Below, piece by piece: positions 2,664 through 57,493 of a stretch of DNA of 64,000 nt. The translations under genes and the position numbers were made by a program. Every line of letters starts with the position of its first letter. The stretch's first letter is position 1. This stretch comes from Coprothermobacter proteolyticus DSM 5265 (GTDB lineage Bacteria > Coprothermobacterota > Coprothermobacteria > Coprothermobacterales > Coprothermobacteraceae), in contig NC_011295.1 in the NCBI RefSeq assembly GCF_000020945.1, positions 248,001 through 312,000 on the forward strand, given 5' to 3'. Under the pieces are notes generated by a model. That model searched no databases. It saw only the letters and a program-made list of their open reading frames with translations, and was not told the DNA's origin.

Positions 2664-3905
2664 ATGAAAATCGATTACAAGAAGCTTTTCCTACTGGGGT
2701 TTGGTTTTATGGGTATTTCGGTGGTATGGGCTTTGTACAATGCGGATGTGCCTGTCATACTTCAAAGTCAATTTGGTATGAGCAACTTTGCCACCGGTTG
2801 GATCATGAATATCGATAACATCTTTGCAGTTACACTCATACCCATTATAGCTGCTTATTCAGACAAAGTCAGCACCAAAATTGGAAGACGCATGCCTTTT
2901 ATCATAACTGGTATGCCGCTCATGGCTGTATTCTTTGCATTGGTTCCATGGATTCCCTTGTTTTTTGGTACATCAACGACGGGGTTGGTCATTTTCATGA
3001 TTACTGTCATCGTCATGAACATATCGGCTGCAGTGAGCAGAGGCCCTGTCATTGCACTCATGCCTGACATTGTTCCACCTGAGCAGCGTTCACCTGCTAA
3101 CGGTGTGATTAACTTTATGGGGGGTTTAGGGTCTCTGCTGGTGTATTTTGGTATTGGTCGAATAAGCAGCCAGAACCGCCCATTGGGTTTTGGTATTGCT
3201 GCTGTTATCACTCTTGTGGCAGCATTTGTTGTCTATAAGGCCATCAATGAACCACGGGATGCCATTTATTACAAGTCGCAAGCTGAAGAAACACCTTGGT
3301 GGAAGAACATTGGCTCCCTTCTGAATAAAGAACACAAGGACTTGTGGTTCATGCTTTTGGCAATTTTCCTGTGGTTCATCGCTTACAACGCAGTGGAAAC
3401 GTTCTATGTGGTCTACATGAGCTTGGAATCAGGCATGGATCCTACAGTGGCAGAAAACCTCGCTAAACTAAATCTTGGCGTCATGTCTTTGGTTTTCATG
3501 GTTTTTGCTTTACCTGCTGGATGGTTGGCAAACAAGTTTGGTAGAAAACGTGTCATGTCCTTTGGACTGGTTTTTATGCTTCTCGCGGTAACTGGCATCA
3601 TGTTTACCAGAAATGCTCTATGGTTGAACTTACTGTTTGCAATGGCAGGTGTGGGTTGGGCCATGATTAACATTAATTCGCTACCCACGGTGGTGGACAT
3701 GGGCTCTCTTGCTGAGGTTGGTACGTTTACCGGTTTGTATTACTTTTCTTCCCAAGCTGCATCAATTGTTTCTCCGCCACTTATTGGCTTTATCTCCGAT
3801 CTGGCAAAAAGTAAATACGTCATGTTCCCCTATGCATTGATTTTCTTTTTACTGTCACTTATTTGCCTTTCAAACGTGAGAAAGGGTGATATTGTTACTA
3901 AGTAG
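2664..3905 (+). CDS. MFS transporter, sugar-symporter-like (second tandem copy)
   Basis: A 413-residue paralogue of the preceding carrier with about 12 membrane segments, an STKIGRRMPFI loop after TM2 and ANKFGRKRVM in the central loop. Shared blocks include INFMGGLGS and AKLNLG. Unlike its neighbour it has a strong AGAGGAGGTAA ribosome-binding site and 173 bp of upstream non-coding DNA, so it probably has its own promoter. Substrate unknown; the family points to sugars or similar small solutes moved by proton or cation symport. Confidence 0.8.
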   Translation: MKIDYKKLFLLGFGFMGISVVWALYNADVPVILQSQFGMSNFATGWIMNIDNIFAVTLIPIIAAYSDKVSTKIGRRMPFIITGMPLMAVFFALVPWIPLFFGTSTTGLVIFMITVIVMNISAAVSRGPVIALMPDIVPPEQRSPANGVINFMGGLGSLLVYFGIGRISSQNRPLGFGIAAVITLVAAFVVYKAINEPRDAIYYKSQAEETPWWKNIGSLLNKEHKDLWFMLLAIFLWFIAYNAVETFYVVYMSLESGMDPTVAENLAKLNLGVMSLVFMVFALPAGWLANKFGRKRVMSFGLVFMLLAVTGIMFTRNALWLNLLFAMAGVGWAMININSLPTVVDMGSLAEVGTFTGLYYFSSQAASIVSPPLIGFISDLAKSKYVMFPYALIFFLLSLICLSNVRKGDIVTK

Positions 3906-46621: not shown

Positions 46622-48004
46622 TTGGTTAACTTCGATCCCACACAAGTACAGACAAACATACAAAAGTATGTAGACACGCTTTTGGTTTATGATAAGAAGA
46701 AAATAACAGAGCTAGAGAACCGTCAAAGTGCTCTGCAGCAGAAATCTTCTGCTGTCTCCCAAGTTATCTCTTTGCTGTCTTCGTTTTCCTCATCATTAAG
46801 CGTAAACTTTGATTCCTTAGCGGTGCGCTCTACTAACGAAAGTGTTGCCCAGGCTACAGCTTCTGGAAAAATAAGTGGTAGTGTCTCAATAAATGTAGAC
46901 AGATTAGCCAGTTATCAAGTTTTAGATTGGACCAAACTTTCTGGGAGTGATTCTTCAAGTGCTTTCCACTTTGATAGTTCTAGCCAGGTTTCTGCTAACA
47001 GTTTTTGGAGTTCATTGGTAGGTTCAAAGTTTAATATTACCTTCGAGCTGGGAGATGGTAGCTCTGAATCTATTGAAGTTGACCTAACACGCTTTAGCCA
47101 AGATTCGGTTCTTTCTCAGGTTTTAGATGATTTTGCTTTCCAAGTCAATGCTCACTCTAGTAAGGTGCGCCTGTACAAGCAGAAGTTGAATGATGGCACC
47201 TTTATTCTGCAAAGCAGTGCTCTGGGTAGCGGTAAGAACAATGCGATAAAATCTGTAGCTTTCGGGAGCATGATTTTTTCTAATGAAGAAGATCTCAGTG
47301 CTTTGGATGCTTCTTTTACTGTGAATGGTTACTCTTACACTCGCAGTTCGAATACGTTTTCAGACATCATTCCCAATTTGACAGTAACATTGAAGGGCAT
47401 TGGTTCTACCATGGTTACAGTATCTAGCGATACTTCCACGATTCTACAAGGCATGTCAAACTTTGTGCAGTCCTTTAAAGCATTTAGTGACAAACTTCGA
47501 GGTCTCATAAACGTTGACCCTTCTAACCAAGGCGCTCTAGCCTCGGATGCTTCTACATTAAGGCAAGTGCTGGATGGTATACGTACAAGACTAATGAGTG
47601 CAAGAGCTGTCAACGTAGACGGTGTTGAATATGGTTTCAATCCCAGTCTTATTGGCATCTCTTTTGACGAATATGGAACTATATCTTTAGACACTAGTAA
47701 GTTGAATAATTACCTTTCCTCAAATGTGAAAGGGCAAGACATTCTCCGCAATTGGTGGGCAGATGTGTCTTCTGATATCCGAAAGTACATCGACAAGGCA
47801 CTTGGCAGTAATGGTACTATTGGCAGGTTGCAGTCAAACTACAATAGCAGTATCAAAGGAATCTCTGATCAGATTAAGCAGCTAAACGCTCAGATGGAAG
47901 AAAAGAGAGCCACGTTAGTAAGTCAGATGGGGGTGATATTTAACAGTCTCTATCAGTACCAGAGTATGTTCGCACAAATGAACTCCTATTTTTCTGTTTC
48001 CTAG
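46622..48004 (+). CDS. fliD: Filament cap protein FliD (HAP2)
   Basis: A 460-residue exported protein. The N-terminal coil (KYVDTLLVYDKKKITELENRQSALQQKSSAVSQ, given here as a landmark around residues 14-48) and the C-terminal coil with LQSNYNSSIKGISDQIKQLNAQMEEKR are the conserved ends; the centre is Ser-rich. FliD caps the filament and helps flagellin fold. Start TTG 46622 follows AAGGTG. Length is typical. Confidence 0.9.
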   Translation: MVNFDPTQVQTNIQKYVDTLLVYDKKKITELENRQSALQQKSSAVSQVISLLSSFSSSLSVNFDSLAVRSTNESVAQATASGKISGSVSINVDRLASYQVLDWTKLSGSDSSSAFHFDSSSQVSANSFWSSLVGSKFNITFELGDGSSESIEVDLTRFSQDSVLSQVLDDFAFQVNAHSSKVRLYKQKLNDGTFILQSSALGSGKNNAIKSVAFGSMIFSNEEDLSALDASFTVNGYSYTRSSNTFSDIIPNLTVTLKGIGSTMVTVSSDTSTILQGMSNFVQSFKAFSDKLRGLINVDPSNQGALASDASTLRQVLDGIRTRLMSARAVNVDGVEYGFNPSLIGISFDEYGTISLDTSKLNNYLSSNVKGQDILRNWWADVSSDIRKYIDKALGSNGTIGRLQSNYNSSIKGISDQIKQLNAQMEEKRATLVSQMGVIFNSLYQYQSMFAQMNSYFSVS

Positions 48005-48038: not shown

Positions 48039-48081
48039 ACACCTGGCTGAGTCGGTGAGCAGGACAGGTGTATGTTATAAT
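48039..48081 (+). promoter_or_regulatory. Promoter of the fliT-like gene with adjacent inverted repeat
   Basis: ACACCTG (48039-48045) and CAGGTGT (48065-48071) form an inverted repeat ending just before TGTTATAAT, a perfect extended -10 with TATAAT at 48076-48081. The ATG follows 7 nt after the box and no ribosome-binding site is present, predicting a leaderless mRNA. The repeat spans the -35 region and could bind a regulator. Confidence 0.5.
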
Positions 48082-48088
48082 TTTTCAC

Positions 48089-48412
48089 ATGGAAGGTGTG
48101 GATGCACTTCTAAAGCGTTACTCTGAATTATTGGACGATGTTATCGATGCCATTTCTCATTCTGACTTAGATAAAGTTTCAAAGTATGTTTTGGTTCTGC
48201 AAGATGTTATTACTTTGATAGCTCAGGAGCTAGAGGAACATCCCGAAGAGAAGCATAAACATGCAGATACCGTAAAAGTTATCCACGAAAAACAACAGAA
48301 GATCATCTCTCTTCTAGAACTGCAGGCTCAAGACTTATTACGAGAAGTGGAAGAAACCACAAATACGTATCAAGCAAGAAAGACCTATGAGCAAAACAAA
48401 GGCATTCGTTAG
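48089..48412 (+). CDS. FliT-like helical protein of the flagellar operon
   Basis: A 107-residue, almost fully helical, charged protein located after fliD where fliT is usually found. Pattern LLKRYSELLDDVIDAISHSDLDKV at the start and a long C-terminal helix fit a FliT-type chaperone of FliD, but identity is not compelling. I choose ATG 48089, 7 nt after TATAAT. It overlaps the lipoprotein gene by 26 bp. Confidence 0.6.
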   Translation: MEGVDALLKRYSELLDDVIDAISHSDLDKVSKYVLVLQDVITLIAQELEEHPEEKHKHADTVKVIHEKQQKIISLLELQAQDLLREVEETTNTYQARKTYEQNKGIR

Positions 48413-48881
48413 CCTTCTTTTGATTCTTTGTTCGGTTGGTTTAACTGGCTGTAAGCCAAAACCCTTTTCTGAAACGGATATCAGCCAATCCAAGGTTGTT
48501 TTGCAGGATGTATTGAATGCTTTTGCTAAGAACGATGTAAATGCATTGCAGGGTAATTTTGTCCCCACCGCTACGGAACTGATTAGCACTGTTGTAGAAG
48601 TTAAGAATGTGTGATTCGACACCTTAAAGTCGATTGGCGTCGAGTCAGCTTCGGTTTCTGGTTATCGGGTTGATCAATTTGATGTAGTAAAAAACGAACC
48701 TGATCGCTTAACTGCTTCAGTTCTGTACACGGGGACATACACCTTCACAGCAACGAAATCAAGCAAAACCTATGTGTGTTCACACCAAGTGGAGGTCGTT
48801 TTTGTTAAATACGAGGGGAAGGTTCTTGTAGGTAACCTGCAGCAGCAGGGGGCGCCGCCTTCTTGCAAGGAGGTGAAGTGA
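48387..48881 (+). CDS. Lipoprotein gene interrupted by one in-frame TGA (48612-48614)
   Basis: ATG 48387 opens a lipoprotein: a basic start, a hydrophobic signal (AFVSLLLILCSVGL) and lipobox LTGC with Cys22. The first 75 codons end at TGA 48612. The same frame then continues without further stops for 89 codons (..FDTLKSIGVESASVSGYRV..VLYTGTYTFTA..VEVVFVKYEGKVLV..) and finishes at TGA 48879-48881, which overlaps the flgB ATG. The second half looks coding (regular beta-strand pattern, no compression). So the full frame is 164 residues plus one TGA: a nonsense mutation, sequence error, or recoding. The mature part faintly recalls NTF2-like lipoproteins; role unknown. Confidence 0.7.
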
Positions 48882-49222
48882 TGTCCGTTGATAGCCTTAA
48901 AACAATGATGGGTATTGTTTTTCAGAATCTGCAGGCAGTACAATCAAACTTGGCAAATGTCGATACGCCTGGATATAAAAGGCAAGAAGTTGATTTTCAA
49001 ACTGTTTTCATGGAGCTACAGAATCATGGAGAATTACTTCAACCGAGTAGTAATTATGTAAAGATTGATAACACCACGTCTTGGAGGCTAGACGGTAACA
49101 ACGTTGACCCTGATAAGGAGATAACAACCCTCATAGAAACAGCTTTGTGGTATCAAGGCATTACGGAAATGCTCAGTCGCCATTTTTCTACTGCCAGGCA
49201 AGTTTTACAGATGTTGAGGTGA
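48881..49222 (+). CDS. flgB: Flagellar proximal rod protein FlgB
   Basis: A 113-residue rod protein. LQAVQSNLANVDTPGYKRQEVDFQ carries the N-terminal rod signature (NiANvdTPgYKa). ATG 48881 follows AAGGAGGTGA and overlaps the preceding TGA. It starts the classical flgB-flgC-fliE-fliF-fliG-fliH-fliI-fliJ order of the basal-body operon. Slightly shorter than usual (about 130). Confidence 0.92.
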   Translation: MSVDSLKTMMGIVFQNLQAVQSNLANVDTPGYKRQEVDFQTVFMELQNHGELLQPSSNYVKIDNTTSWRLDGNNVDPDKEITTLIETALWYQGITEMLSRHFSTARQVLQMLR

Positions 49223-57199: not shown

Positions 57200-57493
57200 G
57201 TGTATGTACCGCCTACAAGTAGTAGCCAAGGTGCAACAGGCTCAGAGCAAAAAGTGCCAGGCTTGAATCGTGATGATTTTCTAAAATTGTTGCTGGCTGA
57301 ATTGAAAGCTCAAGACCCGCTTTCGCCCATGGATACTAATACCATGACGACCCAGATTACACTACTGAACGTGCTTCAGGAGCTTATTGAAATTAAGACC
57401 ATGCTGCAAAACTTAGTATCTGCTAAGTCACAAGAAGGTACAGAGTCCAGCACTACTGACGGAGCCGAGGAGGTAGCAGGTGATGGATCTTAG
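57200..57493 (+). CDS. flgD: Hook-capping protein FlgD, N-terminal domain only
   Basis: A 97-residue protein with the FlgD N-terminal signature LNRDDFLKLLLAELKAQDPLSPMDTNTMTTQI (landmark L.....FL.LL..QL..QDPl.Pmdn.....qla). The Ig/tudor C-terminal half of typical FlgD (140-230 residues in total) is missing. FlgD caps the growing hook. Start GTG 57200 lies 10 nt after GGAGGTGAAAA. It overlaps the next gene, so no frameshifted remainder exists. Confidence 0.88.
   Translation: MYVPPTSSSQGATGSEQKVPGLNRDDFLKLLLAELKAQDPLSPMDTNTMTTQITLLNVLQELIEIKTMLQNLVSAKSQEGTESSTTDGAEEVAGDGS

Follow-up and report, generated by a model that had tools for sequence, protein, structure and literature searches.

A flagellar-operon lipoprotein gene of Coprothermobacter proteolyticus DSM 5265 carries an in-frame TGA that is best explained as a recent single-base nonsense mutation; UGA probably terminates translation there, the resulting fragment is probably non-functional and the stem at the site is coincidental. 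On this lineage, a G-to-A change at 48614 would recently have turned the conserved TGG of Trp76 into TGA, translation would end at codon 76, and a fragment of 75 residues would result, devoid of the beta-rich C-terminal half. An initial annotation of this DNA had raised selenocysteine (Sec) at the codon while regarding a nonsense mutation or an error as simpler. The simpler reading is upheld by tryptophan in the orthologues and by a stem that is not conserved, while the selenocysteine idea loses ground at a site without a loop of the GrdA/GrdB type.

The gene and its internal stop

The genome is a single contig of 1,424,912 bp, from which a stretch of 64,000 nucleotides was analysed (the window; positions 248,001 to 312,000 of NC_011295.1). 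Positions refer to the window unless marked as contig positions (Table 1). As initially annotated, the frame from ATG 48387 is broken only by the TGA at codon 76 and stays open until the TGA at 48879-48881, which overlaps the flgB ATG at 48881 (TGATG); counted through codon 76, the full frame has 164 residues. The description of the product as a flagellar-operon lipoprotein also proved sound. An LTGC lipobox lies at residues 19-22 (read from the sequence), its cysteine (C22) is invariant across orthologues, as is typical of bacterial lipoproteins, and the gene is located between fliD and flgB. It is preceded by fliD (46622-48004) and then a small gene (48068-48412), and followed by flgB, flgC, fliE, fliF, fliG, fliH, and fliI. 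No Pfam family was found for the lipoprotein, and plasmid and viral collections searched with its sequence gave no match.

Table 1 Features of the lipoprotein gene, its surroundings, and the selenocysteine genes (window positions unless marked as contig)
Feature	Position	Strand	Remark
Flagellar-operon lipoprotein gene, one in-frame TGA inside	48387..48881	+	Intact orthologues in relatives
Expected product if the TGA terminates, 75 residues	48387..48614	+	Signal peptide with lipobox and N-terminal helices only
TGA codon 76	48612..48614	+	TGG (Trp) in 6/6 orthologues; G-to-A difference at 48614
9-pair stem, 48612-48620 / 48639-48647	48612..48647	+	Probably chance; not conserved, without SECIS-like apical GGU
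Beta-rich C-terminal half	48615..48878	+	Pattern of coding evolution on this lineage until recently
flgB	48881..49222	+	Start overlapping the lipoprotein stop; own ribosome-binding site
selC	contig 209200-209291 (G000:C1)		Anticodon TCA; outside window
selD	contig 225519-226442 (G000:C1)		One in-frame TGA; outside window
selA	contig 226867-227955 (G000:C1)		Outside window

The next possible in-frame start, GTG 48774, lies far downstream and would give a product without signal peptide. In the predicted structure of an intact orthologue (low confidence, mean pLDDT 61), helices extend to residue 82 and are followed by a beta sheet; on this model the 75-residue fragment would be without the entire sheet, and it is probably non-functional. 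Fold-search matches were weak, some of them NTF2-like, and are not relied on here. A strong ribosome-binding site (AAGGAGGTG) immediately 5′ of the flgB ATG means that flgB may still be translated despite the upstream stop.

Codon 76 in orthologues

Searching 60 genomes in six frames identified six orthologues, three from the same genus, one from a sister genus, and two from a sister family; a seventh match (E = 0.007) was unrelated and was not counted. Codon 76 is Trp in all six, including the most distant family, and Cys or TGA in none, a result that the initial annotation had specified beforehand as a sign of mutation or error. In the nearest relative, which shares 91% DNA identity over the gene, the codon differs by one base, G there against A here. 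The coding-strand change is thus G to A (TGG to TGA) rather than the C to T first suggested. A single substitution from a conserved sense codon, with an undecayed frame downstream, is the pattern of a recent nonsense mutation.

New selenoproteins are recognised by TGA/Cys pairs among homologues (PMC1088965, PMC9312934) and by a TGA that recurs in two or more different sequences, since a lone TGA may be a sequencing error (PMC1088965). The lipoprotein departs from both patterns, with neither Cys nor Sec at the position in its homologues and a TGA found only in this genome. A general reassignment of TGA to Trp (genetic code 4 type) was rejected, because 22 of the window's 64 genes end in TGA and TGG occurs 220 times.

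Age of the stop and selection on the frame

Changes on the branch leading to this genome were polarised against two relatives. Before the stop there are 6 synonymous and 3 nonsynonymous changes, and after it 7 and 2 (P = 0.001 under neutrality), small counts in both cases. These figures point to purifying selection on the frame beyond the stop through most of the period since this lineage and its nearest relative diverged. The stop would therefore be very recent, or a sequencing error, or read through; since every relative has Trp, selected readthrough is the least probable of these options.

A survey for disrupted genes covered the window and 19.5 kb downstream. Protein alignments with another species of the genus, spanning about 57 kb of coding sequence, showed no conserved gene with an internal stop apart from the lipoprotein gene, and the survey detected none among the remaining genes of the flagellar export cluster (fliO, fliP, fliQ, fliR, flhB, flhA, and after). 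Several further stops were dismissed as lying at alignment ends, upstream of real starts, or beyond real stops. Elsewhere in the window, 1252-2490 and 2664-3905 are two tandem paralogues, which match a single gene of another species in the genus at approximately 47% and 82% identity.

The stem at the TGA

Folding confirmed that the TGA stands at the base of a stem of nine pairs with one G-U, as originally described: 48612-48620 (UGAUUCGAC) joins 48639-48647 (GUCGAGUCA) through 8 Watson-Crick pairs and the G-U. The folding energy at the site is −15.3 kcal/mol (48 or 50 nt folded), which is moderately unusual (z = −1.59), with 13 of 200 shuffles folding at least as well. When each of 201 TGG codons in genes of the window was turned in silico to TGA, 8 gave equally stable folds and 2 equally long helices, and a helix of equal length starts at 144 of the 17,781 codons of the window's genes (0.8%). 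Comparison with four relatives showed the stem broken in each, 2 to 7 of the 9 pairs being gone; the nearest two keep 3-4 Watson-Crick and 3-4 G-U pairs with two mismatches, and two more distant relatives lose 7 of 9. The stem at the lipoprotein TGA is probably coincidental.

The stable stem closes a 12-nt loop (UUAAAGUCGAUU) that contains no GGU and starts just some 9 nt past the UGA. No GGU-tipped hairpin was found 3′ of the TGA; by chance, such a hairpin follows 2.2% of random codons. A SECIS hairpin with a small apical loop and a conserved G after the UGA was found only in the loosest sense, that of a G starting any small loop, and then only as weak alternative hairpins, one at −3.4 kcal/mol; 71% of random codons have as much. 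An Rfam search of the whole window and of the site itself returned no match.

Selenocysteine machinery and genuine Sec sites

The initial annotation would have taken an absence of sel genes as refuting recoding, an argument that does not apply here: selA, selB, selC, and selD are all encoded, approximately 66-87 kb upstream of the lipoprotein gene, so that SelA, SelB, tRNA-Sec, and SelD are jointly represented. Contig 209200-230996 (G000:C1) holds this full selenocysteine system (selC, selD, selA, selB) together with a glycine reductase operon. GrdA of glycine reductase and SelD each have one in-frame TGA, as does GrdB, in a TSTUGTCTRC motif. Judged from its gene content, this genome very probably decodes Sec. 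A limited literature search found no paper devoted to the Sec system or glycine reductase in Coprothermobacter.

Among relatives carrying grdA or selD, the TGA codon of each gene is conserved. GGU-tipped hairpins follow the Sec UGA 26 nt downstream in GrdA and 18 nt downstream in GrdB, and that of GrdA is identical within the genus. A rule that every Sec site has a GGU loop was nevertheless rejected, as it fits only GrdA (in the genus) and GrdB: SelD here is not clean (loop GUA or GUU), and GrdA of the more distant family also departs from it. The missing GGU at the lipoprotein stem is therefore a supporting argument only and not a decisive one.

Alternative explanations

A sequencing or assembly error would mean that the cultured strain has TGG and an intact lipoprotein. 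That a single base separates the site from the codon of all relatives, that the downstream frame is without decay, and that no second case was found in the window all speak for an error, which is set against a genome sequenced with Sanger reads at 10x under double-clone coverage with manual editing (PMC4022818) and surrounding genes free of other errors of the kind. This standard of sequencing favours a real mutation; the base is probably real in the cultured strain, error being clearly the weaker of these two options, and as an account of the site as a whole error is unlikely. Two points count against the nonsense mutation itself: the Sec machinery present might in principle decode some of the UGA here as Sec, and purifying selection after the stop is equally expected from readthrough.

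Insertion of Sec at UGA76 would have SelB bind the stem at 48612-48647 and bring Sec-tRNA, giving a full-length selenolipoprotein. The sel genes and the in-frame UGA codons of GrdA, GrdB, and SelD are consistent with it, as are a stem that begins at the UGA and a downstream frame that stayed under selection; it is very improbable given Trp rather than Cys in the relatives, a TGA and stem unique to a single sequence, a loop placed and built unlike the GrdA and GrdB hairpins, the silent Rfam search, and a loose G-loop pattern no better than that of random codons. A variant in which UGA76 came to be read as Sec, or otherwise read through, by capture of a chance stem would be a Trp-to-Sec replacement, unlike the usual Cys-Sec exchange, and seems just as remote. 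Of the stop codons, UGA generally leaks most, and some full-length lipoprotein could come from ordinary readthrough, or from a near-cognate tRNA such as tRNA-Trp suppressing the stop, in a frame that is conserved downstream; no readthrough signal was found and genes in this genome commonly end in TGA, which leaves this possibility highly unlikely as well. Recoding at codon 76, if true, would give a selenolipoprotein of the flagellum, to our knowledge a new kind of protein, and the evidence argues against it. The preferred reading, a recent nonsense mutation, carries a caution: even where the genome decodes Sec and a stem accompanies an in-frame TGA, the codon may be no more than an ordinary nonsense change, and it is orthologues that settle which of the two is present.

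Motility

A published description gives DSM 5265 as nonmotile (PMC4022818); for a further two isolates of C. proteolyticus, the genetic potential for flagella was reported to be absent (PMC7501288). In this strain described as nonmotile, the flagellar and chemotaxis cluster is largely complete (31693-63868 and L053:1-9027). The lipoprotein gene is the only disrupted gene found in that cluster, and it is tempting to suppose that the stop contributes to the loss of motility, although this is a correlation only. FlgD (57200-57493) is very short at 97 residues, with little beyond the N-terminal hook-capping domain.

Comparison with known systems

The orthologue model resembles NTF2-like lipoproteins in its predicted order of helices and then a curved beta sheet, but no match reached E <= 0.001, TM-scores were low, and the mean pLDDT of the model is that given above. 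With grdA, grdB, and selD of the same genome, the lipoprotein gene shares an in-frame TGA and a downstream stem in a Sec-decoding genome. It differs from them in that its homologues have Trp and not Cys and in that its TGA and stem are unconserved, and it has no GGU-tipped hairpin of the kind seen in grdA and grdB. The gene can also be compared with strain-specific nonsense mutations (recent pseudogenes) in motility genes. The effect on motility is here only a candidate link, a point of difference from such cases; shared with them are a change of one base, intact orthologues, an undecayed downstream frame, and an intact operon.
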